Origin: a virus
Virus record (IMG/VR): IMGVR_UViG_3300015206_000010
Coordinates: 1 to 26,594 of that record
Length of the DNA: 26,594 bases
Reading direction: 5' to 3' (one strand)
Position numbers and translations under genes: made by a program. Positions 4,401 to 26,594 of the stretch are shown one piece after another (position 1 is the stretch's first letter; every line of letters begins with the position of its first letter). A model generated the notes under the pieces. It ran no database searches. It was not told where the DNA came from and was given only the letters and a program-made list of their open reading frames with translations.

Positions 4401-5032
4401 AGGTCCTGCGCCGCGGTGAAGGTCCCAGGGATAAGCTGACCGCCGATATCGATGTAGTCGAAGGTCGCGGTTGAACGCCCGATGGTCTGGCTGGTGATGG
4501 TCGCGGCAGCTCCGTTCGTGCCTGCACCCATCGGCGAAACGCCCGAGTGCCGCCCCAGGCTGGTAAGGTCCACCCCACCCAGGTACAGCCTCAGCCCCTG
4601 GTTGCCGCCCAGGAGCGCAGGAGTGCCCCAGGACTCGCCGGATGCGATTGCGGGACGTCCAAGTACGTTGATGAACTGGTCGGGCAGTAGGAGCGCGGCA
4701 GTGCCCCAGAATTCGCCTGTGGGAATCGCTGAGGATAACTGAATCAGCTTGGTGATGATATTGGGAGTTGGCCAGCTTTCCCCTGTGGGAATCGTGCCGA
4801 CGTCCACTTGGCCGTTGATGCTGGGCGTACCCCAGAATTCACCTGTGGGAATCTTCGCGGCCAAGGTGACCGCTTGTCCCGCGCTGCTGATAGTCGGAGT
4901 ACCCCAGGATTCGCCGGTGGGAATCGCGCTCGAAAGCGTGATGGTGTCCGATGAACCGCCAGCGGCCTGCAGCGCGCCGATATCGCGCCCTGAGCCAGAC
5001 TGGAGTGACCCGATATCGAGGTTGCTGCTCAT
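4187..5032 (-). CDS. Tail hub / tip protein, N-terminal fragment with IPTGESWGTP repeats
   Basis: The N-terminal part of the tail-hub protein. Residues 1-25 contain two DIG(S/A)LQ units. Residues about 37-139 hold five copies of a short repeat of the type IPTGE(S/F)WGTP, spaced 20-26 residues, like the SGEAFG-type repeats seen in many phage tail-tip proteins. Then a hub-like beta domain starts (LRLYLGGVDLTSLGRHSG, ATFDYIDIGGQLIPG, VKIVEAGITLFAGCID). The correct frame ends near CITYHIT; the last 20 residues are out of frame. Removing one 8-base unit at 4269-4284 gives a continuous frame from 5032 to 2679. The start ATG lies just after the beta-helix stop and has no clear Shine-Dalgarno. Confidence 0.75.
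   Translation of the reverse strand: MSSNLDIGSLQSGSGRDIGALQAAGGSSDTITLSSAIPTGESWGTPTISSAGQAVTLAAKIPTGEFWGTPSINGQVDVGTIPTGESWPTPNIITKLIQLSSAIPTGEFWGTAALLLPDQFINVLGRPAIASGESWGTPALLGGNQGLRLYLGGVDLTSLGRHSGVSPMGAGTNGAAATITSQTIGRSTATFDYIDIGGQLIPGTFTAAQDLCGVTVKIVEAGITLFAGCIDTVGVDREMPFTSPACITYHITTSPRSTRHPSATTGWSRAKSIRLEPTSGR
4269..4287 (-). repeat. 8-bp tandem duplication that breaks the tail hub gene
   Basis: Plus-strand GGTGATGT occurs twice in tandem (4269-4276, 4277-4284), followed by a partial third GGT. It changes the frame of the tail hub gene. With one unit removed the protein reads C-I-T-Y-H-I-T-A-L-D-K across the junction, joining two halves that both look like tail hub. Confidence 0.75.
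4618..4925 (-). repeat. Five protein-level repeats (IPTGESWGTP type) in the tail hub
   Basis: Five copies of a segment whose plus-strand core resembles CCCCAGAATTCGCCTGTGGG lie about 60-78 bases apart (near 4625, 4702, 4772, 4830, 4902). They encode IASGESWGTP, IPTGEFWGTA, IPTGESWPTP, IPTGEFWGTP and IPTGESWGTP. The spacers are unrelated in sequence. The arrangement follows codon frame, so this is a coding repeat and not a CRISPR or iteron array. Confidence 0.8.
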
Positions 5033-12803: not shown

Positions 12804-13217
12804 TTAAGTGTTCGAGTTGAAAATATAGGCGTCCACGCGCCGCCAGTACCGAATTGGTGTCGTTTCGGTGAAGCCGCTGCCGCCGATGTTGATGACCGTC
12901 GTTGCGCCGACCGTGTAACCGGTGGCGTTGAATTGGTCGAGGAACGCCAGCAGCTGCGCTTCGACCTCCTGCGCCGTCGCGACCGTCGATCCCCAGATGG
13001 TGAACTGCACGCGCGCCCGTTCGAGTGCGTTCGCGCCTTCGGCCGAGCTCAACGGAGCTCCCGAAACCCGCATGAACACGATGGCCGGCATGTTCGAGGT
13101 CTGGACCAGCTGCACGTTGTAGATTGCGGCCGCTCCGTCGGCGCGCAATCCCAGCGTGGCTACCAGTGCAGGCGTCACCTGCATCGCGGTTTGCAGCTTC
13201 ACCTCGAGCGTGTTCAT
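12804..13217 (-). CDS. Tail terminator / completion protein (DUF3168-like), 137 aa
   Basis: It resembles DUF3168-type tail terminator proteins that cap the tail tube. It has an N-terminal helix (LEVKLQTAMQVTPALVATLG), a strand with Y-N-V-Q-L, the motif ARVQFTIWGSTVATAQEVEA (an RVQI-like central strand and helix), and a final strand RRVDAYIFNSNT. The gene overlaps the preceding one by ATGA and leads directly to the tail tube gene. This order (HK97 gp10-like, DUF3168, tail tube) is standard in siphoviruses. Confidence 0.8.
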   Translation of the reverse strand: MNTLEVKLQTAMQVTPALVATLGLRADGAAAIYNVQLVQTSNMPAIVFMRVSGAPLSSAEGANALERARVQFTIWGSTVATAQEVEAQLLAFLDQFNATGYTVGATTVINIGGSGFTETTPIRYWRRVDAYIFNSNT

Positions 13218-13618
13218 TTGCGTAACGCAAGCGCGATTTGTCCTCTGAAGATTTCCTTCACTGCGTCCTTGCTGGAGTCAAAGGCTGGGCGCATATATGG
13301 TTGCGGCGGCATTCCAGGCCAATTCTGGTTGTGCGGGACCGATGGGTCGCCCTTCCTTCCGGTCCCAAATTCTACAAACGAAGCGTAATCGGTATGCGGC
13401 GCCACGATACCGACGGTGGTCGACCCGCTGGTACTGACTGCCGAGGTAATCGAATCGCGCAGTGCGCCCGTGTCGACGGGACAATACCCCTTCGCGGAAT
13501 CCTCAATCAGCTTGCAGGACGCCGTCACGCTGGCGACCACAGCCGGTGCGATAGAGCCCTGGATGAACTGGCCGATGTCGTTTCGCGGCTTGAAGGTTGC
13601 GCGCGCCGAAATCCCCAT
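13214..13618 (-). CDS. HK97 gp10-like neck/tail completion protein, 134 aa
   Basis: Contains the signature of the HK97-gp10 family: AKGYCPVDTGALRDSITSAV, then HTDYASFVEFGTGRKG and QPYMRPAFDSSKDAVKEIFR. These proteins act at head-tail joining or tail completion. It is 134 residues long, usual for the family. The start overlaps the previous stop as TAATG, and the stop overlaps the next start as ATGA, so it is firmly in the operon. Confidence 0.9.
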   Translation of the reverse strand: MGISARATFKPRNDIGQFIQGSIAPAVVASVTASCKLIEDSAKGYCPVDTGALRDSITSAVSTSGSTTVGIVAPHTDYASFVEFGTGRKGDPSVPHNQNWPGMPPQPYMRPAFDSSKDAVKEIFRGQIALALRK

Positions 13619-14601: not shown

Positions 14602-15888
14602 TTAGACGCCCTGCCCTGTGCTGGCTGCCGCCGAGCGACCGTCAAGTTGAACACCGCCGAAGGCCATCAGCACCTTGAATTCGGTGCTCATGGTGCGGAA
14701 ATCTCCAAGCAACGGTTCCACGCCACCGCCGACGCGCATGGTGTTCGGAACCTTCTCGTACAGCTGCGGAGTGCCGTAGCCGCGCAGCGTGCCGAATTCC
14801 ATTGCCGGACGTCCCTGGCTCGCCGGGTCGGCGAACATGTACCACTGGCTAATTTGCACGCCAGGGGTGGTCGTGACGATGGGCAGATACGGGTCCATGA
14901 TGACCGTGAGGTCCTGAACAATCCAGTTATCCACCCTCACGCGTTGAGCGTTGTACAACGTCTGGGTTGCGCCGGTGCCGCTAACCTGCGTTGTTCCGCC
15001 CTGGACGTTGACGTCTACCGACAGCTGGTGCATCAGGTTGTTAGCCGTGACTTTCAGCGAAGGTCCAACGACCAAGAACAGCTTGCCCGGGATTTCGATG
15101 GGGTCGCCGCCGGTGTCGCGCTGGTTCGCCATGACGGTGAACGCATCCGCCAAGCCCTGCATGGTCAGTGCCGGGTTGTTCGAGCTCGCGCCGTTCGCCG
15201 TGATGATTTGGTTATTGAAGCCAGCGTTGAACAGCGTCGAGTTCGGGCCGGTCAGGCCAGCATACAGCTGGGTGATGAATTTCGACACGGTGCGACGAGC
15301 GCCGCGCGCCAGGCGGTTGGTCAGGTCGTCGAAGATTCCAAGGTCGTCATTGATGACGGCTTCCCAGGATACTTTCGCGCCCTTCTCGTACTTCAGCGGA
15401 GCGTACAGAATCGGCGTGCGCTGGCTGATATCGCCGAGCGGCAGGTCCTGCAATTCCGCGACCGCAGAGAACGGAGTTTCCAAGCCGTCGAAGATGAAAA
15501 TCTTCTTGTTGCGGAAATCGTTCAGCGTGGCCGTCTTCACCAGCGGCATGGTCGGAATCGGAACCTCGGTGTAATCGCCGAGCAGTTCGCGGTCGAGCAC
15601 GTCCACGGTCAGCGCTTGGAAATCCGACGTGGTCATGGTTTCGCGAAACACCATCGGGTATTTGCGGCAAAGGAAATCGAACGCGCCCGACTCGGTCAGG
15701 TTGAACGCCTGACGCATGTAGAACGGGTTCAGCTTGCCTTCTTTGAAGTCAGCCCAGATTTCGGCCGCTCCAAGAACGCGCGCCTCGCGCAGCCGGTTCT
15801 GCTGCCGGGTGACGGCAGAGAAACCGGGAACATCCATATCGCCCGTAATCGGCGAGCCAGCGAAGAGACCTTCTAGAAGTTCATTCAT
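14602..15888 (-). CDS. Major capsid protein, 428 aa
   Basis: A 428-residue capsid protein placed after the protease/scaffold and decoration genes. It is recognisable from its layout: an N-terminal arm and helix (ILGAAEIWADFKEGKLNPFY-like region), a long middle with the P-domain/spine pattern (VDVLDRELLGDYTEVPIPTM, ILYAPLKYEKGAKVSWEAVI), then INDDLGIFDDLTNRLARGAR, LFLVVGPSLKVTANNLMHQL and a C-terminal MSTEFKVLMAFGGVQLDGRS. The HK97 fold is expected from established knowledge of this gene position. A strong ribosome binding site (AGGAG, eight bases upstream) and a downstream terminator fit high expression. No frameshift is present. Confidence 0.88.
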   Translation of the reverse strand: MNELLEGLFAGSPITGDMDVPGFSAVTRQQNRLREARVLGAAEIWADFKEGKLNPFYMRQAFNLTESGAFDFLCRKYPMVFRETMTTSDFQALTVDVLDRELLGDYTEVPIPTMPLVKTATLNDFRNKKIFIFDGLETPFSAVAELQDLPLGDISQRTPILYAPLKYEKGAKVSWEAVINDDLGIFDDLTNRLARGARRTVSKFITQLYAGLTGPNSTLFNAGFNNQIITANGASSNNPALTMQGLADAFTVMANQRDTGGDPIEIPGKLFLVVGPSLKVTANNLMHQLSVDVNVQGGTTQVSGTGATQTLYNAQRVRVDNWIVQDLTVIMDPYLPIVTTTPGVQISQWYMFADPASQGRPAMEFGTLRGYGTPQLYEKVPNTMRVGGGVEPLLGDFRTMSTEFKVLMAFGGVQLDGRSAAASTGQGV

Positions 15889-16537: not shown

Positions 16538-16975
16538 CTAACGTCTCCCTTCGACCGCGCGCGTTGCCGCCGCTTCTGTCATCCCCAGGCGCATGAAGGT
16601 CTTGACCGAGCGCGCCTTGATGTCTTCCGGCTTCACGGATTCAGCAACGGGCAGCTGGATAGTCGACGGGGTTCCGACTCCACTGACCTTGCCCGATCCC
16701 ATGATGGTCGCGACGTAGGCACCTTCGGCCTTGGCCAGCGCGTTGACCGATTCGGTGAACGCAGCAACGTCGAGCGCGCCATCCTTCATCGGAATGTTGC
16801 GCAGCGCTTCGGCGATGACGCGCGCCTTCGATTCCTTCGGCAGAGTCACCGATTCGAGCAGCGTTTCCGCAGCCTCTCGCGCGTCGCCCTTGATGGCACG
16901 TTCCAGCAGTTGGGCGTTGACGACTTTCTGAGCGTCGACGCTTTCCCGCAAAGTTTTCAATTCCGCAGCATCCAT
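16538..16975 (-). CDS. Nested in-frame scaffold protein, 145 aa (internal start)
   Basis: Within the protease gene an AGGAGGT ribosome binding site stands 7 bases before an in-frame ATG (16975-16973, residue 395). It is the best ribosome binding site in the head module, and the start lies just after the protease domain. The product (MDAAELKTLRESVDAQKVVN and onward) would be the helical scaffold alone. This recalls lambda C/Nu3, where an internal start makes separate scaffold. Expression of the internal start is inferred. Confidence 0.65.
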   Translation of the reverse strand: MDAAELKTLRESVDAQKVVNAQLLERAIKGDAREAAETLLESVTLPKESKARVIAEALRNIPMKDGALDVAAFTESVNALAKAEGAYVATIMGSGKVSGVGTPSTIQLPVAESVKPEDIKARSVKTFMRLGMTEAAATRAVEGRR

Positions 16976-18157
16976 TTCGGATACCTCCTGTTCGTTTTCG
17001 ATTTCGCGGGCAGCTTCAGCCAGCGCCAGACCACCGCGGCCTGCTTTCGTCACATAGTCGATTGACTCGATATGCGAAAACTCTTTGAGTACGGGCTTTC
17101 CGCCGACCGTCTTGTCGCCTTCGCGGATACCGCCCGCGCGAATCGATAGGCCGATGTGCGGCGCCCGCTCCGCGACCTTCTCGGCGTAGTCCGCCATCAC
17201 CTTCGCTTCGGCGTACACGCCCGCACCTTTCGGCCCGTTATCCTTCCACACGGCCTGGCTGGTGGTAATCGCTGCCAGATGGTCGAGGTTGCCTTCCGGT
17301 CGCGCGGCTTCCTCTGCTGGCGTCGCGTGGTTCCAGAACATCAGCGTCCCTGGCTTGAACTTGCCAGCCTCGCGCTTCAGCGCTTCCGCGGTGTAGTGAG
17401 CCGTGCTGCCGGTGCCGGGGTTGATGATGAGGATTGGATAATTGGTGCGGGTGCCAGCCGATTCGCGAATCGAAACATCCGCCAGAAACGTTGCCGCCGA
17501 TTCGACCAGCTTCAGTTCGCCGGATGCCGGCACTCCGGATTCCTTCGCGTCACCTTTCCAGGTCGCCGGCAGTTCGTCGGTGAATCCCTTGGCTTTCGCA
17601 ATCCGGATGATGTTGGCCTTCAGCTGAGCGACGCCGTAGTTATCGGAACCTGCGCGGCCCATCGCATGGATGGCTGCCTGGACGTCGGACGCCTTCAGAA
17701 TCGGAAACGACTTGCCCTTGCCTGCGAAGCTGTCGTCGCTGGCCGAGCTCCGTTCCGTCTTGCTGATGAACCGCTCGTACAGCGGAAGGTCCGTGTACAG
17801 CTTCGCCGTCTTCAGCGACTCCGACATGGACGAGTACTGGTCGTCGTCGTCGGCCTGCTCCAGGTAACTGGTTTGCGGAATGACCTTTACAGCCTTCGAA
17901 GCGTCGAGGTTAGCGGTTTGCTTTCCGCCGACCGTGCCGATTTCGTACGGCGCCTTCTGCATCGACCCGTTCGAGGAATAAATGCAGTCGCCGGACTCGC
18001 CGTCGCCCGTGTGGTCAACGTAGTAGCCGTATCCGTTCGGGTTCGTCGCAGCACTGACTGCGCTTTGCAACTGGTTCCGCACGTCGCTATGACCCGCGGC
18101 CTCTTCGAGTTGCAGCGCAAGCGCCTGGTAACCGGGTGAAAGCTTCTCGATGGCCAT
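16538..18157 (-). CDS. Prohead maturation protease with C-terminal scaffold domain, 539 aa
   Basis: A 539-residue head protein. Residues 1-75 include GYYVDHTGDGESGDCIYSSN, an N-terminal domain seen in other phage proteases. Residues about 140-205 match a DUF6582-like region (GKSFPILKASDVQAAIHAMG, IIRIAKAKGF, LPATWKGDA). The protease core spans about 215-375: the likely catalytic pair is His277 (MFWNHATP) and Ser338 (HIGLSIRAGG), and SHIESIDYVTKAGRGG is the conserved closing motif. The rest (380-539) is helical and charged, as expected for the scaffold, which the protease removes. The start ATG has no strong Shine-Dalgarno, and a divergent plus-strand gene lies 72 bases upstream. Confidence 0.85.
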   Translation of the reverse strand: MAIEKLSPGYQALALQLEEAAGHSDVRNQLQSAVSAATNPNGYGYYVDHTGDGESGDCIYSSNGSMQKAPYEIGTVGGKQTANLDASKAVKVIPQTSYLEQADDDDQYSSMSESLKTAKLYTDLPLYERFISKTERSSASDDSFAGKGKSFPILKASDVQAAIHAMGRAGSDNYGVAQLKANIIRIAKAKGFTDELPATWKGDAKESGVPASGELKLVESAATFLADVSIRESAGTRTNYPILIINPGTGSTAHYTAEALKREAGKFKPGTLMFWNHATPAEEAARPEGNLDHLAAITTSQAVWKDNGPKGAGVYAEAKVMADYAEKVAERAPHIGLSIRAGGIREGDKTVGGKPVLKEFSHIESIDYVTKAGRGGLALAEAAREIENEQEVSEMDAAELKTLRESVDAQKVVNAQLLERAIKGDAREAAETLLESVTLPKESKARVIAEALRNIPMKDGALDVAAFTESVNALAKAEGAYVATIMGSGKVSGVGTPSTIQLPVAESVKPEDIKARSVKTFMRLGMTEAAATRAVEGRR

Positions 18158-18229
18158 TGAGCCGTATCGTACTGGTCACAGGTAACGGCTACCAAGCGAA
18201 AGGCCAAAGACTTTAGTAAGGTAGATTAA
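18158..18229. promoter_or_regulatory. Divergent intergenic region, likely with promoters
   Basis: The 72 bases between the minus-strand protease gene and the plus-strand zinc-ribbon gene. On the minus strand TTGGTA and TACGAT are 18 bases apart and could be a promoter giving a nearly leaderless protease message. On the plus strand AAGGTAG lies about 5 bases before the ATG at 18230 and is a plausible ribosome binding site. A short imperfect palindrome GGTAACGGCTACC sits in the centre and could be an operator. Judged by eye only. Confidence 0.35.
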
Positions 18230-18589
18230 ATGGCAAAGCAGACACCCGTTAAAACCCCCACCGTTGACGCACAGGCGCCCCAGGACGCGGCGTCCGTTGT
18301 TTCACGTGAAACAGGCCGGATGCCGTCCTGTACAAGCTGTGGGTTGCGGGACGCCGCGCCCAACGGGAAAGATTACTGGTGTCTGGAGTGCCGAGCCGAA
18401 TATCAGCGCAAATATCGAAGCGCCGACGCGATTCGTGCGCGGGCTGAAGGGTATGCCACGGGCGTGGCCGATTTGCGGGTGGCGTTGCGGGAATGGTTCG
18501 AAGGCCAGCGGTCGGGCATGTTTTCCGGTTACGAGATTTCGGAAATCATCCGCCAGCAGAATTCGCCACGCGAAGCGACTCGCGAATAG
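18230..18589 (+). CDS. Zinc-ribbon protein on the opposite strand, 119 aa
   Basis: The only supported gene on the plus strand. Residues 1-30 are Thr/Pro/Ala-rich and likely disordered, but include VVSRETG, encoded by a perfect parS palindrome. Residues about 33-58 form a zinc ribbon with two CxxC pairs (SCTSCG and WCLECRAEYQRKYRS). The rest is helical (ADLRVALREWFEGQRS, GYEISEIIRQQ). This layout resembles small phage and bacterial HNH-less zinc-ribbon proteins that bind nucleic acid. The orientation, within an otherwise minus-strand operon, suggests independent regulation and later acquisition. It ends close to the SixA-like gene, so the two converge. Function unknown. Confidence 0.75.
   Translation: MAKQTPVKTPTVDAQAPQDAASVVSRETGRMPSCTSCGLRDAAPNGKDYWCLECRAEYQRKYRSADAIRARAEGYATGVADLRVALREWFEGQRSGMFSGYEISEIIRQQNSPREATRE
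18298..18313. promoter_or_regulatory. parS: Perfect parS-type ParB-binding palindrome
   Basis: TGTTTCACGTGAAACA is a perfect 16-bp palindrome identical to the consensus of bacterial chromosomal parS, bound by ParB (Spo0J). It lies within the first quarter of the zinc-ribbon gene, where it encodes V-S-R-E-T. The exact 16-mer is expected by chance well under once in 10,000 windows of this size. No parA or parB gene is visible here. Binding by host ParB is an inference from the sequence identity. Confidence 0.85.
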
Positions 18590-18602: not shown

Positions 18603-18626
18603 TGGCGGATTATACGGCATCCGCCA
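18603..18626. terminator. Hairpin between convergent genes, possible weak terminator
   Basis: TGGCGGAT and ATCCGCCA form an 8-bp perfect stem around an 8-base loop. It lies 13 bases after the stop of the plus-strand gene and overlaps the last codons of the SixA-like gene. There is no T-run on the plus side, so termination is uncertain. Confidence 0.3.
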
Positions 18627-19143
18627 ACTCGCGCGCCGCTTCGACGACTTCGGCTTCCTCAATCGAAGGAACCAACGCGGGCGTGATGAGCCATTGCAGC
18701 GTGGCGACGTCGTCCGAATTCATTTTCAGATAGGCGATGGAACCCTGGTCGAAGCGAACGTACTCCGGTCCTGGCGTGCTGTCGGTCCCGATGAGCCACA
18801 GCAGCAGGGTGTTCAGGCTTGGGTCGTGTCCGACCACCAGAACATCGGTCGACGCGGCCGCCAGCCTGACGATTTCCTTCCATGCTTCCGCTGGTTCGGC
18901 GTCGGGTTTCAGGAGCGTCGTCGACGCGGTGTAGGAACCCAGCGCCTTCGCCATCGGTTCGGCCGTGTCGAGTGCGCGCGTCATCGGCGAGCAGATTACG
19001 ATGTCGACGCGTCCAATTAGCCGGGTCAGCCAGCCGGCCATCTGCACGGCCTGTTTCTTGCCGAGGTCGGTTAGAGGCCGCTCGCCGTTCATTGGATGGC
19101 CGTTGACGGGTTGCCCATGCCGCATTAAATACAAACTCTTCAT
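18610..19143 (-). CDS. SixA-like histidine phosphatase, 177 aa
   Basis: A member of the histidine phosphatase superfamily, closest in style to SixA, which removes phosphate from phosphohistidine of signalling proteins. The catalytic signature is at the N-terminus: LMRHGQP with Arg8-His9-Gly10. The second site CSPMTRALDTAEPMA includes Ser52 and Arg56, and VVGHDPSLN has the second catalytic His106. All key residues are present, so it is likely active. The gene lies between a Cys/His-rich small protein and the plus-strand gene, in the head operon. The stop of the upstream gene is one base before its ATG (TGACATG). A phosphatase is not a known part of phage heads; the substrate is unknown. Confidence 0.9.
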   Translation of the reverse strand: MKSLYLMRHGQPVNGHPMNGERPLTDLGKKQAVQMAGWLTRLIGRVDIVICSPMTRALDTAEPMAKALGSYTASTTLLKPDAEPAEAWKEIVRLAAASTDVLVVGHDPSLNTLLLWLIGTDSTPGPEYVRFDQGSIAYLKMNSDDVATLQWLITPALVPSIEEAEVVEAARELADAV

Positions 19144-19144
19144 G

Positions 19145-19345
19145 TCAGAACCTCATCATAGGACAGTGTGGCGACCAATGCCGAATGGTCGGCAGGCCTG
19201 ATGTCTCGTCGTAGTGAATCACCGCCAGCCAGACGAGCCCACAGCGTTCGTGCGTCCAGCGGTCTGTATCCTCCAGCGAACCGGACAGCAGCGCTTTCGA
19301 CAGCGCCTTCCCGCAGCAGCTGTCCGGTTCGTGGGTGTTTATCAT
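19145..19345 (-). CDS. Small Cys/His-rich protein, 66 aa
   Basis: A 66-residue protein with conserved-looking metal-type residues: EPDSCCGKALS at the start, RWTHERCGLVWLAV in the middle, and RHWSPHCPMM at the end. The Cys/His spacing suggests a zinc-binding fold. Its start overlaps the portal stop by ATGA, and it leads into the SixA-like gene, so it is part of the same message. No family recognised. Confidence 0.65.
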   Translation of the reverse strand: MINTHEPDSCCGKALSKALLSGSLEDTDRWTHERCGLVWLAVIHYDETSGLPTIRHWSPHCPMMRF

Positions 19346-21354
19346 TTCAGTTTTTCAACGGCCTGAATCAGCCGGGTGAGCGCTTCCTTCTGCTGCTTCG
19401 GCACAGGCGCATTCTGCCCGGGTGCCGGCACGGTTCCACCTGGCGCCTGCGGAATGCCGCCAGGATTCGGAACGGCTTTCGGCACGGGTGGTGCTTCCGG
19501 TTCCTTTGTGCGGTTCGGGTCGTACTTGTCCGGTCCACTATCCGGATACATGCCGTCCAGGATTTCCTGGTAGTCTTCCACGCCCAGCTGCTCAAACAGC
19601 AGCCCGACGCCAGCCTTCTCGTCGATACCAACAATCTGGCCGCCCTTGTTCTGGAGGGTCATGGCGTCCGAAATCGCGATAATGTTCTGAGGCATGTCGC
19701 CCTCGCGAATCGCCGGGAAGTTGCACTTCAGCTGGATTTCGGAATCGGGCCGCGCCTGCGAGGCTTCCGCCACGTAAACCCACTGGCCGTTCGCCTTCCG
19801 CTTCCGCGCCATCTCGACCACTCGCCGGTTGCCCTTGCGTGCTTCCCGCAGCTTTCCGCCTGGCGCCGACTGGCTGACCGATAGGACGTACGCCGCAATC
19901 ATGATGAGCACTTCGCGCCAGCTTTCCTGCTTCGCAATCATGCCGAGCTCTGTCGGTCGGTCGAGGGTGGTCGCGGTCGATAGGTTCGCCGTCTCCATGT
20001 CGCCAAGCCAGGTCGGCGGAATCTCGAACACCAGGCCGACCATGTTCCGGTATTCCTTCACGTCCGACGGGTTGCGGACGGCGCCGCTCGTATCGAACGC
20101 CTTCAGCGTCGTGCCGGGTCCGCTCGCGAAGATTGAACCTGCTATCGGTGGAGGGTTGCGGTCCCACAGCGAATTGTTCGGTCCGACCGTCGTACCCAGC
20201 TGTTCCTTTGCGCCTTCCAGCGCTTGCTGGCCGCCCTTGGTTGTGACGGTCATGGCGATGTTGGCCAGCGCGATGCGGGTGGTCAGGTCGGCTTCGAGCA
20301 GCCGTTGCGCGTTCTTTGCCCATGCCAGCGCCGCGTACGCCTTCGGTGTATCGAAGTGCCACTTCCCGATACCGACGCCGCCCTTCTGCATCAGGACGGG
20401 CGTGTTCCACATGATGTCTTGGCCGTTGATTGCGGTCTGCCCGCGCTGCTCTGGTGTTGGAATCCAGTTCAGAGCCGGATAGAACGCTTCCGCCTGCCTG
20501 GCCTGACCGGTTCCAAGCTGGGAGTCCGCGGTCCGCTGCGCCCACTTCCGGTGATAGAACCACGGCTGGTCCGAATCGTCCGGGTTGCTGATGACTTCGA
20601 AGATTTCCGTCGCGTCGATTGTGCGCACGCTGACGTTTCCTTTGTTAACCGCGTCGGGAAAGAAGATATAGAACACCTGGCCGTCATATTGCAGCCGCTT
20701 GTGGAGCTCGAGCAGCGCTGACTGGCCGAGCGTGCGCTTGTTGCGTTCGAAGAATTCCTTCAGCACTTCGTTCGCGTCGTCGTCTTCGGAAACTACTTCA
20801 ACGCCGCGGCCGAACACGTAGCTTGCTGTTACGTTGATGCCGCGCTGGATGAGCGGGTTCTTGATGTAGTACAGCCGCGAAATCAGGATGATTTGCTGGA
20901 TGCCCCACCGTGAGAATTCGAGCCAGGAAAGATTCGACTCGCGCCGCCACTCCATGTTCTCAAGCGCCAGCGATATATCGCCGGTGGCGCCCACGGCCGA
21001 CAGCGGAATGGATTCGCGCAGCGCTGTTCCTTCGCGGTCGGATAGCTTGGCGTTCGCGAACGCAATCAGCCGGTCGGTGTCCTGCAGAACGGCCGGCGAA
21101 ACGCGCCACGGTCCGGACCCGCCCATCTGGCGCGCCTCCATGAGCTCGCCGATTCGTTCCGAGAAGTCCGCGTGCCTCTGCTCGATGCGGTCGCGTTCGA
21201 ATGACTTGATGAGCTCAGACCGCAGCAGCGCGTTCGCGGCCTTCAGGTCGGTTAGGACTTTGTCTTTCGCTGTGGCTTCGCGCAATGCGCTGGTGATGGT
21301 TTCAACCGGCGCCGGTTGAGTGTCTCGCTTGAAGAATCGCCGCAGCCAGTTCAT
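19342..21354 (-). CDS. Phage portal protein (lambda-B-like), 670 aa
   Basis: A 670-residue portal protein forming the dodecameric DNA entry ring. The N-terminus is MNWLRRFFKRDTQPA, then a middle with NLSWLEFSRWGIQQIILISR and YYIKNPLIQRGINVTASYVF. The wing has GQVFYIFFPDAVNKGNVSVR and the region before the stem has YRNMVGLVFEIPPTWLGDME, followed by TANLSTATTLDRPTELGM, which is typical for phage portals. The C-terminal 70 residues are Pro-rich and linker-like. Its place upstream of the protease fits the standard order. A GTP-less start with no strong ribosome binding site lies after an inverted repeat (21362-21383). Confidence 0.9.
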   Translation of the reverse strand: MNWLRRFFKRDTQPAPVETITSALREATAKDKVLTDLKAANALLRSELIKSFERDRIEQRHADFSERIGELMEARQMGGSGPWRVSPAVLQDTDRLIAFANAKLSDREGTALRESIPLSAVGATGDISLALENMEWRRESNLSWLEFSRWGIQQIILISRLYYIKNPLIQRGINVTASYVFGRGVEVVSEDDDANEVLKEFFERNKRTLGQSALLELHKRLQYDGQVFYIFFPDAVNKGNVSVRTIDATEIFEVISNPDDSDQPWFYHRKWAQRTADSQLGTGQARQAEAFYPALNWIPTPEQRGQTAINGQDIMWNTPVLMQKGGVGIGKWHFDTPKAYAALAWAKNAQRLLEADLTTRIALANIAMTVTTKGGQQALEGAKEQLGTTVGPNNSLWDRNPPPIAGSIFASGPGTTLKAFDTSGAVRNPSDVKEYRNMVGLVFEIPPTWLGDMETANLSTATTLDRPTELGMIAKQESWREVLIMIAAYVLSVSQSAPGGKLREARKGNRRVVEMARKRKANGQWVYVAEASQARPDSEIQLKCNFPAIREGDMPQNIIAISDAMTLQNKGGQIVGIDEKAGVGLLFEQLGVEDYQEILDGMYPDSGPDKYDPNRTKEPEAPPVPKAVPNPGGIPQAPGGTVPAPGQNAPVPKQQKEALTRLIQAVEKLK

Positions 21355-21361
21355 CTGCGCA

Positions 21362-21383
21362 GTTTAGCAGTTCCAAGCTAAAC
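21362..21383. promoter_or_regulatory. Inverted repeat between methyltransferase and portal genes
   Basis: GTTTAGC and GCTAAAC form a perfect 7-bp inverted repeat with an 8-base loop. It covers the stop of the methyltransferase gene and lies directly before the portal gene. It could be an operator, an RNA hairpin or a processing site. There is no T-tract, so it is not called a terminator. Confidence 0.35.
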
Positions 21384-22100
21384 GCAACGCCTGAAGTCAA
21401 AGTCCGGACAACGCGCCTTGAGGTCCGGAAGGTTCGGGTCCGACACGTGGTCTGGCGGCGTGAAGTCGCCGCGCCAGCACAACAGAATGCCGTGCGGAGT
21501 TGAATACCAGCGACACTTGAAGCCGCGATTCATCAAATACTGCGCACCCTCGCGCACGGGTCTGCCGAGCGCGTCATGAAAGATGATGGCTGCATTGCTC
21601 CCCATGCGCGTCGCTGCAGCCTGAGCGTCGAATAAGGGCTCACCTGGTTCGTGGTCGCCGTCGATGCATGCTCCAGCCAGTGGCGTATTTTCTCTGCTGA
21701 AGTATCGCCGCGAGGTTTCATGACGGACGCTGTAAACGCCCGTCCAGGAAGAGCGCAGATTCTGTTCGAACCGTTCCTGCCATGCCGCAAGTCTAAGCAT
21801 CGGGTCGACCGCAATTACGCCGACTCCAGCCGCAGCAATATGCGCGGTGGTCCAGCCGGTATGGCATCCAATGTCGACCCATGTTCCGCCGATGCGCCGC
21901 GCCACGTTGTAGAGAATCGCCGCCTCGTCGTGCGTCCATAGTCCGCAGTTCTTGTACAGCCCGAAGACCGGGTCGTCATCCGCCTTGTCGGCCCAGTCCG
22001 ATAGGACGGTGTGTCCGAACGAATGCGGCATCACGCGCGCGGTCAGGTGCCGGAAGTGCGGCTGAATGTCAGGCGCTTTCAGGTTCGAACGATAAATCAT
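21378..22100 (-). CDS. Class I SAM-dependent methyltransferase, 240 aa
   Basis: A class I (Rossmann) methyltransferase. Motif I is GGTWVDIGCHTGWTTAHIA at about residues 70-88, with the next strand as VGVIAVDPM (post-I). A later block GACIDGDHEPGEPLFDAQAA is reminiscent of Methyltransf_24-type enzymes, where D-G-D-H lies near the metal/substrate site, and FHDALGRPVREGAQYLMNRG follows. The tail PDHVSDPNLPDLKARCPDFD is short. It is likely to act on small molecules or sugars. It is coupled to the upstream HNH-like gene by ATGA and lies directly before the portal gene. Confidence 0.75.
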   Translation of the reverse strand: MIYRSNLKAPDIQPHFRHLTARVMPHSFGHTVLSDWADKADDDPVFGLYKNCGLWTHDEAAILYNVARRIGGTWVDIGCHTGWTTAHIAAAGVGVIAVDPMLRLAAWQERFEQNLRSSWTGVYSVRHETSRRYFSRENTPLAGACIDGDHEPGEPLFDAQAAATRMGSNAAIIFHDALGRPVREGAQYLMNRGFKCRWYSTPHGILLCWRGDFTPPDHVSDPNLPDLKARCPDFDFRRCV

Positions 22101-22549
22101 GACGCTCTACGTCCACCGAATCTGGCTGGAGTCAGCACTGCTTCGCGCTCGCTCATGCCGCGCTCTATTCGATGATGAATCGTGGTGGGCGAGATACCTT
22201 TCTCAGATGCCCAATCTGTAATGGTCTTACGCGCACCGTCGATTTCTATGAAGTGAGTCGCCCTGGTGTTGCGCATCTGCGCATCCCTCGTCACCCAGGC
22301 TATGTTCCCCGGCTCATATCCTCTGCTGTTGTCAATTCGCTCCAGGGTATGCGACGCCGTCGGTCGCTCGCCGATGTGCGCAAGCCACCTGGCGAAGCCG
22401 CCGCGACCCAACCAGCCACGGAACACGCGAATGCCTCGCGCACCGTAGTCTTTGTGGTTTGGATGCTTCGGATTCTCGCACCTGCCCGTCATGTTGGCCC
22501 ACGCATCGTACTCTGCACTGTGGGATTTGTTGTGTGTTATTTTTCCCAT
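22097..22549 (-). CDS. HNH-like DNA-binding/nuclease protein, 150 aa
   Basis: Resembles a common phage family with an HNH-type fold followed by a DNA-binding helix-turn-helix. Visible parts are EYDAWANMTGRCENPKHPNH, the YGARGIRVFRGW block, then HTLERIDNSRGYEPGNIAWV with the downstream QMRN, a pattern like the H-x-D...N...N part of HNH enzymes. The first His of the classic motif appears replaced (LERID), so nuclease activity is uncertain. The C-terminal part (ITDWASEKGISPTTIHHRIE) is a helix-turn-helix with the RGMSEREAV pattern. It could be a free-standing homing endonuclease that has entered the operon. It starts 5 bases after the GT2 gene. Confidence 0.65.
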   Translation of the reverse strand: MGKITHNKSHSAEYDAWANMTGRCENPKHPNHKDYGARGIRVFRGWLGRGGFARWLAHIGERPTASHTLERIDNSRGYEPGNIAWVTRDAQMRNTRATHFIEIDGARKTITDWASEKGISPTTIHHRIERGMSEREAVLTPARFGGRRAS

Positions 22550-22553
22550 CGGC

Positions 22554-23669
22554 CTACAGCATACCGAACAAATTCAGACCTTCAAAGTACTTTCGTCCGT
22601 ATTTTGAAATCATTTCCTCACAGTACCGTTCCTGCCAGGGAACCGCATTGAGGTCTAAGTATTTGAGCAGGTGCGCATATCCAGCCCACCAGTCGTCTGG
22701 TGCTTGGGCGTATTGCCAGTCAACCGGACTTTCAATCCCCGGACGTCCCAATATGGCTTGGTCGTTACCGAACAAATTCAGGCCTTCAAAGTACTTTCGT
22801 CCGTATTTTGAAATCATTTCCTCGCAGTACCGTTCCTGCCAGGGAACCGCATTGAGGTCTAAGTGTTTGAGCAGGTGCGCATATCCAGCCCACCAGTCGT
22901 CTGGTGCTTCGGCGTATTGCCAGTCAACCGGACTTTCAATCCCCGGACGTCCCAATATGGCTTGGTCGTACATTGCGTCGATTTTGGCGATGTCCATCTC
23001 GGGATGGTGAATACGGTCGCGGATTTTATATGCCCGATGCTTCGCTATCAGCCGGCGTTCGGTGACGCCCCACAGGTGCATGATTCCGCCGTCGCCGTGC
23101 ATATATGGCCGGAACGGCACCCACCTGCAGCCCTGCGGTTCGCGTCGATGATGCTGGTAGGCTTTCGCCCCGAACTGGTCGGACGGCTTCCAGCGCAGCT
23201 GCGGGTTGTCAGTGAACACCACCGAGGTTTCACGGCGCGCCCACATGCCGGACGAGTGATACAGGCGTGGCGTCCTGCGCATGTTGTAAAGCGGCAGTGT
23301 GAGCATCGACGTCCCTAGCGCGTTCCACGTTTTCAAGTCACATAAGGCGCGAACTTCCGTAGCGACGTTCGCCGTCAGGATTTCGTCGGCGTCAACGATA
23401 CTGATATGCGTCGCCCCGAGCAGCCGCGCGCGTTCGAGCATCATTTGCCGATGGTCCATTTCATCCCATAGGTCGGTGGGAACGGATTCGCAATGCACCC
23501 GGCCCGGGAATTCAGCCTGCAGGTCCGCGATGATGTCGACTGTGCCGTCTGTCGAGCCGTGGTTCAGGATGACCAGCGCATCATTCCACAGCAGCGCCAC
23601 GCGCGCGCTCAGGCCAATAATCCATCCCTCATTCCGAACAGGGCAAAGAGCAATTAATTTCATAATCAT
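22554..23669 (-). CDS. GT2-family glycosyltransferase with duplicated C-terminal segment, 371 aa
   Basis: A family 2 glycosyltransferase (GT-A fold). MKLIALCPVRNEGWIIG is the typical start, with LVILNHGSTDGTVDIIADL as the nucleotide-binding block and HISIVDADEIL (Asp93-x-Asp95) as the DxD metal-binding motif. Sugar-nucleotide transfer to a glycan or protein is expected. Residues 235-302 and 303-370 are a 68-residue repeat created by a 204-base in-frame duplication; only two residues differ between copies. The duplicated part has WQYAxAPDDWWAGYAHLLK. A single copy would give a 303-residue enzyme. The start is M1, or M3 (MKLIAL) with the usual GT2 beginning; M1 overlaps the stop of a short remnant. 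Confidence 0.85.
   Translation of the reverse strand: MIMKLIALCPVRNEGWIIGLSARVALLWNDALVILNHGSTDGTVDIIADLQAEFPGRVHCESVPTDLWDEMDHRQMMLERARLLGATHISIVDADEILTANVATEVRALCDLKTWNALGTSMLTLPLYNMRRTPRLYHSSGMWARRETSVVFTDNPQLRWKPSDQFGAKAYQHHRREPQGCRWVPFRPYMHGDGGIMHLWGVTERRLIAKHRAYKIRDRIHHPEMDIAKIDAMYDQAILGRPGIESPVDWQYAEAPDDWWAGYAHLLKHLDLNAVPWQERYCEEMISKYGRKYFEGLNLFGNDQAILGRPGIESPVDWQYAQAPDDWWAGYAHLLKYLDLNAVPWQERYCEEMISKYGRKYFEGLNLFGML
22563..22970 (-). repeat. 204-bp in-frame tandem duplication in the GT2 gene
   Basis: Two head-to-tail copies (22563-22766 and 22767-22970) differ at four positions apart from the boundary base (for example CAGACC versus CAGGCC). Two of the four changes are synonymous, and the others swap Tyr for His and Gln for Glu. 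The frame is kept. Confidence 0.9.
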
Positions 23670-23719
23670 TCTGGGTAGCTGGTCAGTTCGATGTTCAATC
23701 GCCAGGCGATGAGCTTCAT
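23666..23719 (-). pseudogene. 17-residue remnant of a glycosyltransferase end
   Basis: A very short frame reading MKLIAWRLNIELTSYPE. It closely matches IAWRLNIDLTNCPE near the end of the 24143-24862 glycosyltransferase, and the DNA is also similar (for example CCCAGAATG at the end of both). It overlaps the stop of the 141-residue gene and the start of the GT2 gene by ATGA on both sides. It is probably the leftover of a deleted glycosyltransferase copy, although a short translated peptide used for coupling is possible. Confidence 0.55.
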
Positions 23720-24141
23720 TCTGCCGCCTCTTTGTTCTTTATCACGAAAGCATTTTTAACTACGCCAACTCGTCCCTTGCAGGCGTTGAGGCATTTTGCG
23801 CATGGGACTAATACTTCGAGGTGCGCTTCCGATTCAACAAGGCTCTTGATTTCTTCTGCCAGTTGGTCGGCTGAGGTTAGCTCGAAGTTCCAGTAAGTTC
23901 CTTCAGTAATCGGAGCGGCTTTGAACCCGCAAAAGAAACCCTGGTCTTCGCCAGCCAGCCTGATATGTAGCCGAGCGGAGCGCCCATAGACTTCCACCAC
24001 TTCGACGTCTAGCGTTTCCGGCATCGTGTGGCGCGCGTCAAAATCACAGGTCGCTACGCGTCCTTCGCCGAACAAGTCTGCAATCAAAACCTCTGCGTTT
24101 GGATGCAATTCAAGTTGCCGAGCTAACTCACCAGCGCGCAT
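23716..24141 (-). CDS. Hypothetical protein with a CxxC cluster, 141 aa
   Basis: A 141-residue protein. The first 25 residues (AGELARQLELHPNAEVLIAD) resemble the opening of a widespread small phage/bacterial protein with an E-L-x-x-x-L-x-x-x-P-x-x-x-V pattern. The middle is beta-rich (LDVEVVEVYGRSARLHIRLA). The end contains VPCAKCLNACKG, three cysteines in a CxxCxxxC cluster that could bind metal, followed by a lysine-rich tail. It sits between two glycosyltransferases. No function can be given. Confidence 0.6.
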   Translation of the reverse strand: MRAGELARQLELHPNAEVLIADLFGEGRVATCDFDARHTMPETLDVEVVEVYGRSARLHIRLAGEDQGFFCGFKAAPITEGTYWNFELTSADQLAEEIKSLVESEAHLEVLVPCAKCLNACKGRVGVVKNAFVIKNKEAAE

Positions 24142-24142
24142 T

Positions 24143-24862
24143 CTAGTACGCTCCGTCAGCGATGAGCACCGTCTTGTCTGTTTCGCCGCCCTTATACGCG
24201 AACCATTCTGGGCAGTTAGTCAGGTCGATATTCAGTCTCCAGGCGATGACCGAAGCCGCACTTTGGTCATGCCGGTGGCCGCGAACGTCACGAGGTCCGC
24301 AAATGCCGTAGCGGCCGCTCGCTACCAAGCTGGCGTCGACGTCGTGCGGCCCAAGGTTAGGATGCGCCCATGCCGCGTTCACCCACGGCCCACGAAATGC
24401 GCCGTTCTTGGCGAGTCTCAGATACTCGTCGAGAAATGCTCGACCCGTCGGGTGATTCGTGCAAACCCCAAACGTCGTGGCTACGACGTGTTTGATTTCG
24501 CGATTTTCTTCCCGACTGACGCCGAGCAACGGATACGCCGCCTCACATGTCCAGGTTTCGTTGCTATAGCCGTTGTTCGCGAACCAGACGCCATCGTCTT
24601 CAATCTTCTGCCAGAGGTCCTCGAGCGGCCGCGCGCCTGGCACGATGCAGGCGTCCATCCAGAGAAGCGTCGGATACTTGAGCGCGGCCATATCCAGCGC
24701 GTGCGCCTTGAAAGCATAGGGAACCTCGGAATGGTCTGGGCATCCCAATGGCTCGCGGTCCCAGGTGATGAGCGGAACGCCCGCAAAGCTTTCCTTCAGG
24801 CGTCGCTGCCCTTTCAGGTAATGCTCGCCGGTGGCGACGTTGACGATTGCGCGCGTGCTCAT
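24143..24862 (-). CDS. Putative glycosyltransferase, 239 aa
   Basis: A glycosyltransferase-like protein. It starts MSTRAIVNVATGEHYLKGQR, then LITWDREPLG and CPDHSEVPYAFKAHALDMAA. The segment YPTLLWMDACIVPGARPLED has a W-x-D-A-x-x position like the DxD-type metal site of GT-A enzymes. It ends with HDQSAASVIAWRLNIDLTNC, a region typical for phage glycosyltransferase-like proteins. The substrate is unknown, but it would add a sugar, with the other GT2 gene. The start shares an ATGA overlap with the original end of the FkbM gene, which supports the start. Confidence 0.7.
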   Translation of the reverse strand: MSTRAIVNVATGEHYLKGQRRLKESFAGVPLITWDREPLGCPDHSEVPYAFKAHALDMAALKYPTLLWMDACIVPGARPLEDLWQKIEDDGVWFANNGYSNETWTCEAAYPLLGVSREENREIKHVVATTFGVCTNHPTGRAFLDEYLRLAKNGAFRGPWVNAAWAHPNLGPHDVDASLVASGRYGICGPRDVRGHRHDQSAASVIAWRLNIDLTNCPEWFAYKGGETDKTVLIADGAY

Positions 24863-25005
24863 TTGAGCACCATGACTAAGTTGGTGGCGTTCGCATAAAC
24901 CACATTGTAACCGTTAGTGGTGGCCTTTGCGCTAACTTCGCCTTCGCGGCCGTCGTGCTCGACGACGATGCAGCGCGGTCGCCAGCCGAGCTCGACGATG
25001 TGCAG
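24859..25005 (-). pseudogene. Detached C-terminal part of the FkbM methyltransferase
   Basis: The frame from 25005 to 24859 encodes IVELGWRPRCIVVEHDG and continues through GYNVVYANATNLVMVLK. This is the expected end of an FkbM-type enzyme and is joined perfectly to the upstream frame when one 19-base copy is removed, giving 234 residues. It now has no start codon of its own. Its stop overlaps the next gene start (ATGA), showing that this was the original end of the gene. Confidence 0.8.
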
Positions 25006-25582
25006 CGAGCTCGACGATGTGCAGGAACAGTTCCGCCGAGGTTCCTTCGGTGTCGATGTTTATCATGTCGAAGCCACCGAACTGGTTTGAGATTTGTTCA
25101 GGAGTGATGGCTGGCACTAATGCCTGGCCGTAGAAGATCGCGCCAGCGTCTTTCCACTTCTGAACATTGCCGGAGCTCGATAGCGCGTCATCGCTCAGTT
25201 GCAATAGAACCAATCCGGGGACGGTGGCGACGCAGGCCTGTATCAGCGTTAGCCTGGTGGTGTGACCGTACAATTCGCAGCCGCACACGACGCAGCATTG
25301 TCGTTTCCGTTCGCCGTATAGTTCGGTCGGCACGTGGCCGCAGATAACGCAGGCGCGCATCAGGTTGATGAACGGCCCGGGTGATGGCTCGATGAGTAAG
25401 CCGCTCCAGCCGAGCTCAATCAACGCCCGGGTGTTGCTCTTGTCGGTCGGGTGGTGCGCGCCGATGTCCAAGAATCGGCCTCGCGTATAGTTGATGCCAG
25501 CGTTTCCGCCGTCCACTTCGAACGCTTCTAGGATGTATGATTGTTCAGAATATTGAGAATAAATAGTCCCGCTCACGCGCAT
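24932..25582 (-). CDS. FkbM-family methyltransferase with inserted zinc ribbon, truncated
   Basis: An FkbM-type SAM methyltransferase. It opens YSQYSEQSYILEAFEVDGG and has RFLDIGAHHPTDKSNTRALI (motif I) and WSGLLIEPSPGPFINLMRAC, with GFDMINIDTEGTSAELFLHI at the end of the core. Between these, residues about 77-103 hold an inserted zinc ribbon with two paired Cys clusters (CVICG and CCVVCGCEL). The frame is lost at residue about 192 due to the 19-base duplication, and the last 24 residues are Arg-rich off-frame sequence. A GAGGAG ribosome binding site precedes the ATG at 25582. Activity may be lost, since the final strands are missing. Confidence 0.85.
   Translation of the reverse strand: MRVSGTIYSQYSEQSYILEAFEVDGGNAGINYTRGRFLDIGAHHPTDKSNTRALIELGWSGLLIEPSPGPFINLMRACVICGHVPTELYGERKRQCCVVCGCELYGHTTRLTLIQACVATVPGLVLLQLSDDALSSSGNVQKWKDAGAIFYGQALVPAITPEQISNQFGGFDMINIDTEGTSAELFLHIVELAAHRRARLATALHRRRARRPRRRS
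24987..25024 (-). repeat. 19-bp perfect tandem duplication that breaks the FkbM gene
   Basis: Plus-strand CGAGCTCGACGATGTGCAG occurs twice in tandem (24987-25005 and 25006-25024) with no mismatch. Removing one copy restores a 234-residue FkbM frame ending at 24859, with an ATGA overlap to the next gene. Confidence 0.9.
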
Positions 25583-25677
25583 CTCCTCTTCAAAAACCTA
25601 GGTTGTCTATTTACGGAATCCTCTTCGCTCCAGCCCTTGCGGAGCCTATCCCTGATGACGTGCGGCGGCATTGGCAT
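25573..25677 (-). CDS. 34-aa micro-protein with an HTH-like motif
   Basis: A 34-residue protein, too short for usual cutoffs. It is supported by a perfect ribosome binding site (GGAGGT, 3 bases before the ATG at 25677) and a TAATG overlap with the preceding zinc-ribbon gene. The core (HVIRDRLRKGWSEEDSVNRQ) matches the pattern of the C-terminal helix-turn-helix in the HNH-like gene at 22097 (TIHHRIERGMSEREAVLTPA): R-x-R-x-x-x-G-W/M-S-x-x-x-x-V. It looks like the DNA-binding part alone. It could be a remnant of a mobile nuclease or a genuine small regulator. The end overlaps the FkbM start. Confidence 0.6.
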   Translation of the reverse strand: MPMPPHVIRDRLRKGWSEEDSVNRQPRFLKRRCA

Positions 25678-25892
25678 TAAACCTCCGTTTTCGGTTCTAA
25701 GATTTCCAGCATGAGTTCTGCGGCCGCGTTCAGGCATGCCATGCAGCCGACCTTGTTCGCTGAAATCGTTCGCTGGCAATTCGGATTCGGGCAGCGCTTC
25801 GTGCCTGACGGCCGCGTCTTCACTACTTGCGGGTGTGGTTCCGCCTGGCTGAGGTTTTCAGCCAGCAGCGAGTTGAGCATCTTCCCGTTCAT
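25677..25892 (-). CDS. Small zinc-ribbon protein, 71 aa
   Basis: A 71-residue protein starting at the ATG at 25892, after GGAGGG; longer upstream readings of this frame are not protein-like. Residues about 33-52 hold a zinc ribbon (RCPNPNCQRTISANKVGCMA, with the last Cys next), a four-Cys C-x4-C...C-x2-C layout. The rest is helical (LNSLLAENLSQAEPHPQV, LNAAAELMLEILEP). It overlaps the TylF-like stop by ATGA. The function is unknown; small zinc ribbons of this kind often bind nucleic acid or partner proteins. Confidence 0.75.
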   Translation of the reverse strand: MNGKMLNSLLAENLSQAEPHPQVVKTRPSGTKRCPNPNCQRTISANKVGCMACLNAAAELMLEILEPKTEV

Positions 25893-26482
25893 CGTCCCTC
25901 CTGTTTGATTTGGCGAATAAATTGAATCGGTCCAAAGCTGTTGCCCATGTAATCGAGAGTCGCTTTGCGGGAGCCGCTTAAATCGAAGTCGTCGACGACG
26001 ATGATTCCACCTGGGACGACCAGCGGGATCAAGTGTTCCAGGCAGACCTTCGTCGATTCGTAGAGGTCGCCGTCGAGCCGAAGCAGCGCTATCTTCGGGT
26101 TCGTCGCCGCCCAAGCCGGAACGGTGTCCTGGAACATGCCTTCGTGAAACACGAACTGGCCGAGGTCGAAGCCCCATTCGGTCAGGTGTGAAACCACTTG
26201 CTTGCGCGAGTGCGACGATTGCCCCACTGGGTGGTTGGCTTCGAGCCATTCGACGTCTTCAGGTCCAGCGGCTGGAACTCCCGCGAAGGTATCGAACAGG
26301 TGAACCATTTTAGACGTCCCGATCGCCATCGCAGCAGCGTTCGACCCAGCGCCGACGCCGCATTCTACGATGACGCCAGGAACGCTGAAAGTTTGGACGT
26401 ATCGCCCAGCGCTGTAGCTCGCCTTGATGGTGTGCAGCGACGAGTACGCGCGCGCTGCGATGGTTTCTAGAGACGCAATCAT
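25889..26482 (-). CDS. TylF/MycF-type O-methyltransferase, 197 aa
   Basis: A TylF/MycF-like methyltransferase. Motif I is VIVECGVGAGSNAAAMAIG, then VHLFDTFAGVPA, LLRLDGDLYESTKVCLEHLI and GGIIVVDDFDLSGSRKATLD, with the Asp residues that in MycF bind magnesium (D in LDGD and the DD pair). It would methylate a sugar hydroxyl. The start is taken at 26482 (MIASLETIAARAY) because the stop of the upstream frame forms an ATGA overlap there and the longer frame from GTG at 26566 overlaps a better coding frame. No strong ribosome binding site is visible at 26482. Confidence 0.75.
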   Translation of the reverse strand: MIASLETIAARAYSSLHTIKASYSAGRYVQTFSVPGVIVECGVGAGSNAAAMAIGTSKMVHLFDTFAGVPAAGPEDVEWLEANHPVGQSSHSRKQVVSHLTEWGFDLGQFVFHEGMFQDTVPAWAATNPKIALLRLDGDLYESTKVCLEHLIPLVVPGGIIVVDDFDLSGSRKATLDYMGNSFGPIQFIRQIKQEGR

Positions 26483-26594
26483 AGTGGGTTGCAGCCAGGG
26501 AAACCAGCCGCTTTCCTTTCTTCGAATAACTGCTTCGACTCGCGCCAGTGTTTCGGCGTGTTCCACTTCTCAAGATGCGCCGGAAGCTTCGCCG
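26479..26594 (-). CDS. Partial gene, C-terminal end, at window edge
   Basis: An open frame without a start in the window. It reads AKLPAHLEKWNTPKHWRESK and then QLFEERKAAGFPGCNPL, a protein-like, charged and helical sequence with no stop. It ends with TGA overlapping the ATG of the TylF-like gene. It is not recognised. Its presence moves the TylF-like start to 26482. The rest of the gene lies to the right of the window. Confidence 0.6.
   Translation of the reverse strand, partial: AKLPAHLEKWNTPKHWRESKQLFEERKAAGFPGCNPL

Follow-up and report, generated by a model that had tools for sequence, protein, structure and literature searches.

A lone host-type parS site in the head module of a tailed phage, and an excess of the same 16-mer in viral contigs lacking partition genes

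The window analysed here, the whole 26.6-kb stretch of DNA (26,594 nucleotides), is an IMG/VR fragment of a tailed phage, the rest of whose genome lies outside the fragment. The capsid, head protease and portal genes and a long tape-measure-like gene are carried on the minus strand (Table 1). All neighbouring head, tail and portal genes share this orientation, and the small reading frame ORF119 appears to be the sole plus-strand gene of the structural module, as had been claimed in the original prediction. The histidine phosphatase gene that separates ORF119 from the portal gene matched no homologue in the corresponding loci of related phages. A 134-aa head-completion-type protein is grouped with the tail-connector genes in the window (13214-13618), while its homologue in most relatives (L122-L126, L128, L132-L134) lies beside ORF119 on the opposite strand; these differing places point to gene shuffling around ORF119.

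Table 1. Features of the window at and around ORF119.
Feature	Position	Strand	Remarks
Major capsid protein	14602..15888	-	PF25209, E 7e-30
Head maturation protease, divergent from ORF119	16538..18157	-	phrog_15531, E 2.9e-26
Divergent intergenic stretch, from protease gene start to ATG 18230	18158..18229		46% G+C; AAGG Shine-Dalgarno sequence
ORF119, 119 aa	18230..18589	+	Antisense to head module; holds parS
N-terminal extension of ORF119, aa 1-30	18230..18319	+	Contains parS; missing in homologues found; 62% G+C
GGACGCGGCGTCC, 13-bp inverted repeat	18283..18295		Two bases from parS
Alternative start ATG	18320..18322	+	Coincides with start of homologues
Histidine phosphatase family protein, convergent with ORF119	18610..19143	-	PF00300, E 3.1e-15
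Portal protein	19342..21354	-	phrog_10963, E 3.7e-51

Several features were observed elsewhere in the window. In a tail-region protein (4187-5032, minus strand), the N-terminal half contains several repeats of the motif IPTGE(S/F)W(G/P)TP. Upstream of the portal gene, a row of methyltransferase- and glycosyltransferase-like genes (21378-26566; TylF-like PF05711, Methyltransf_24) is homologous to a similar cassette in contigs L147 and L148. Within it, a 204-bp unit stands in tandem duplicate at 98% identity (22562-22969), doubling the C-terminal ~65 residues of a 371-aa glycosyltransferase-like protein, and is either a real recent event or an assembly artefact.

The small protein encoded by ORF119 has a long helix and two pairs of cysteines of the CxxC type. 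Residues 27-82 matched the profile of endonuclease VII (PHROG 1035) with an E value of 2.9e-4, and no Pfam match was found; the profile match, covering 56 of 271 positions, is too weak and partial for ORF119 to be assigned to that family. AlphaFold gave pLDDT values below 50 at residues 1-9 and 11-26, followed by a better-defined cysteine-rich head and then the long helix. Because of the low values, the segment of ORF119 up to parS is predicted to be unstructured, as far as residue 26.

The site itself, TGTTTCACGTGAAACA at 18298-18313, is a perfect 16-bp palindrome and an exact match, with no mismatch, to the chromosomal parS consensus, the Spo0J/ParB site of ParABS systems (PMC10197239). Most bacteria hold and place their chromosome through this sequence. 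Both this identity and the low probability of a chance hit had been predicted and are borne out. With independent bases at the window's 59.7% G+C, 2e-6 exact sites are expected per window, and no other match at up to three mismatches was present in the whole 26.6 kb. The site is read as codons 23-28 of ORF119 (GTT GTT TCA CGT GAA ACA, V-V-S-R-E-T), three of which are rare within their respective families (TCA 6%, CGT 10%, ACA 8%). If the peptide is taken as fixed, the probability of exactly these codons under the window's codon usage is 1.4e-5, and no other codon stretch able to encode the 16-mer was found in the 20 genes tested. No sigma-70-like promoter was found near parS. The neighbouring inverted repeat GGACGCGGCGTCC resembles a terminator stem, but may be due to chance, as shuffled sequences yield 0.8 such sites.

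Relatives of the phage were fetched by capsid (25-78% identity) and by portal, and at least 14 related contigs were found to carry an ORF119 homologue. Where mapped, these genes lie on the strand opposite the head genes and adjoin the protease gene. The homologues begin a few to ~20 residues ahead of the first cysteine (alignment A1), and the 30-residue extension that bears parS was absent from every one found; since they start so close to this cysteine, the extension in the window is an addition. The conservation that the original prediction looked for fails at this depth of comparison: no related record scanned contained parS at up to one mismatch, and retention of the site within its own lineage was not seen among these distant relatives (ORF119 28-40% identical; closest capsids 60-78%). 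The divergent gene arrangement is kept in them without any parS. Judged by these comparisons, the parS of the window is a private, recent gain of this phage lineage, because the homologues lack the extension and the relatives lack the site. A recent common origin of the site with relatives was rejected, as none of them carries parS.

Several weaker matches were also set aside. A two-mismatch site in relative G005 reads V-P-R-E-T inside a protein, which we take to resemble a ribbon-helix-helix protein, and the CACGTG core of a two-mismatch site in relative G006 is broken. In Pelagibacter phage HTVC027P, the one-mismatch site is translated as F-H-V-K-H, presumably in a frame of VRR-NUC-type nuclease character. 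All three may be protein coincidences. An in-frame TGA in the terminase of G005 and G009 was a read-through artefact, the standard ORF of 487 aa being intact. Capsid relatives in genomes were too distant to identify a host (best 38%, Streptosporangium; 28%, one MAG). Tyrosine integrases were encoded by G006 and G010, so that the family may include temperate phages.

Whether parS belongs to the coding sequence depends on which start is used. The start of the homologues favours ATG 18320, whereas the ribosome-binding site favours ATG 18230, which has the better Shine-Dalgarno sequence (AAGG, 8 nt spacing) and lies 68 nt ahead of the first base of parS. Both starts are possible on this evidence; if ATG 18320 is the true one, parS would stand in a 5' leader rather than in coding DNA.

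Exact parS was found in at least 120 stretches of IMG/VR. Two control palindromes of the length and composition of parS were scanned to the end of the collection and gave 10 (the scrambled TCTTTGACGTCAAAGA) and 33 occurrences (TGTTTCAGCTGAAACA, with the parS arms and a dead core) in all of IMG/VR. The 18-mer formed by GT plus parS was present in at least 119 stretches, just nine of those listed being also among the 120 parS loci, where ~4 would be predicted from the dead-core control with a random flank. Because the GT flank was seen in 9 of the 120 parS loci listed and the 18-mer in so many stretches, ~1,600 or more viral parS stretches can be extrapolated, if the lists are representative. 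The excess of parS is therefore ~30-fold as a bound that needs no extrapolation, and 48-160-fold when extrapolated.

Most of the parS loci listed (103 of 120) hold a single site, and 17 hold between two and five exact copies, which none of the 43 control loci does. Five stretches with four or five exact copies each (L017, L044, L165, L243 and L248) are candidates for true viral centromere arrays. Of the 84 non-redundant parS sites listed, 24 are intergenic, compared with none of the 31 dead-core sites and with 7% of positions taken at random; the scrambled control, unlike the dead-core one, was intergenic in 4 of 10 cases, a small number. The viral sites are spread over many unrelated locations, with genes for internal virion protein, tape measure protein, terminase, head-tail adaptor, portal and DNA polymerase holding or flanking them. 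Among the matches listed, 58 of 83 coding sites are read in the V-S-R-E-T frame. In 292 of 314 cases VSRET was encoded by the codons of parS, which was dropped as evidence, since the loci had been chosen for parS. A preference of coding parS sites for disordered linkers found no support in composition (0.53 against a background of 0.51), and selection for harmless placement is thus not supported in general.

Contigs with parS of 19-201 kb (n = 29) were examined for phage and partition genes. Terminase was identified in 20 of them (phrog_2, phrog_38), indicating that most of these contigs are phage rather than stray chromosome. Neither HTH_ParB, the domain that reads parS, nor ParA was found in any of the 29; a ParB_N-like domain scored above the cut-off in three and an integrase was present in four. 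The excess of the 16-mer is seen in phage DNA with neither parA nor parB. A phage-encoded parA or parB, which the original prediction had suggested looking for, was also not found here: the window gave no match to ParB_N (PF02195) or ParA (PF13614), nor were ParA and HTH_ParB found in relatives of 42-47 kb, two of which gave weak, sub-threshold ParB_N-like matches. With its exact parS, phage head genes and no ParB or ParA genes, the window fits a class of 'solo viral parS' that is proposed here.

A parallel is offered by podovirus contigs with pelagiphage-like scaffolding genes (L054, L112, L162, L199), in which parS lies in the N-terminus of the scaffolding protein, again in the V-S-R-E-T frame. 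Both the length and the sequence of this N-terminus differ among the contigs, and it is followed by a conserved body, RPEWLPEKF, which is present without parS in the isolate HTVC041P. As in the window, the gene that holds the site belongs to the head module and has it in an N-terminal segment that is variable; unlike in the window, the gene (scaffolding) and the phages are unrelated ones and the site is common to several diverged contigs. These contigs show the same pattern, a patchy parS in a tolerant peptide, although they were chosen for having parS and the parallel is no proof of conservation.

As lone parS sites are tens of times commoner than matched control palindromes, phages probably borrow a host segregation protein through them. 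Provided that a canonical ParB exists in the host, its binding to the parS of the window is very likely, and there is a fairly good case that this binding is the reason for the site's presence. The likeliest reading overall, to which we give an even chance, is that the solo, phage-borne parS is a loading site for host chromosomal ParB, recently gained in a dispensable extension or leader. That the benefit would be positioning or partition, rather than a decoy effect or gene control, is put forward tentatively; of the uses considered, it is the likeliest. The original proposal that host ParB is borrowed or titrated finds support at the population level, in the excess, the multi-copy and intergenic sites and the terminase-bearing contigs without ParA or HTH_ParB, but not in conservation of the window's own site. 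The single copy in the window and the composition around coding parS sites, no more disordered than the background, also count against the loading-site reading.

Under such a mechanism, host ParB-CTP would load at the phage parS on entry into the cell, close as a clamp and slide along the viral DNA. Loaded in this way, that DNA could act as a host partition complex, and the ParA (and SMC) machinery of the host would keep and segregate it while non-integrated. This would favour persistence of the phage in a carrier state or before integration; an integrase is encoded by two relatives. It is a little less than an even bet that many unrelated tailed phages have independently acquired a lone parS of the host type and exploit the host ParB-CTP clamp, and via it ParA/SMC, with no partition genes of their own.

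Chance is a fairly unlikely source of the site. An accidental 16-mer in a weakly constrained peptide, of no use even though ParB may bind it, would suit a site private to this lineage, and the ~28 dead-core control sites in large viral ORFs illustrate that such coding matches occur in a large collection. However, the expectation per window is minute, and coding parS sites exceed coding controls ~20-fold or more (extrapolated), so that few exact matches should be accidental. It is far less probable still that the segment is a passenger, captured from a host gene with a coding parS, such as the one that some bacteria carry in the 5' region of rsmG. The extension is indeed an added segment missing in homologues, and the V-S-R-E-T frame recurs in many coding sites; yet no phage protein or Pfam family similar to ORF119 was found, and the intergenic and multi-copy viral sites require another cause.

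Two further readings would have host ParB bind the site to a different end. As a decoy, which we think unlikely, the many parS copies of a replicated phage would draw ParB clamps away from the origin of the host and upset its segregation or division, to the advantage of the phage. The same sequence evidence applies to it as to the loading-site reading, phage copies would be expected to outnumber the few host parS sites, and a lytic-phase role is possible given that 25 of the 29 long parS contigs have no integrase; a decoy would, however, profit from arrays, whereas single sites prevail among the loci listed. Local control, in which ParB, either sitting on parS or spreading outwards from it, would keep ORF119 and the promoter region of the divergent protease gene repressed until copy number rises, is quite improbable. 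The position of the site, shortly past the probable start codon or else within a leader, and near a divergent gene pair, would be apt for it, as would the intergenic excess of viral parS, but no promoter of the sigma-70 type was recognised nearby, the relatives share the divergent arrangement without parS, and viral parS sites are scattered over many unrelated places.

The loading-site reading can be set against two known systems. Chromosomal parS of ParABS, which is found on bacterial chromosomes close to oriC or parAB, shares the 16-bp consensus; the copy in the window instead lies in a phage head module where no parAB was found, and is a putative ParB site. P1 parABS and extrachromosomal mycobacteriophages have their own ParA/ParB with a private parS (PMC7157519). 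The likeness to these phage-plasmids is that a phage replicon bears a centromere, which may serve an extrachromosomal stage, and the difference is that the window has a host-type site, with no ParA in it or its relatives and no HTH_ParB in the relatives. No report of a phage-borne host-type parS was found in the open literature, preprints and most subscription papers being outside the search, and the priority of the finding is uncertain.

Phage partition has so far been studied in phages that bring their own ParABS. Silent mutation of parS should be feasible, given the tolerance of the coding stretch that holds it, and the pelagiphage-like sites of L199, L054, L162 and L112 are good laboratory candidates. 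If the proposed borrowing is true, parS would provide a simple handle on how non-integrated phage DNA is held or segregated and, in addition, a sequence-based marker of host choice. The borrowing would also mean that phages depend widely on the host centromere machinery, and that host ParB is a common viral target.
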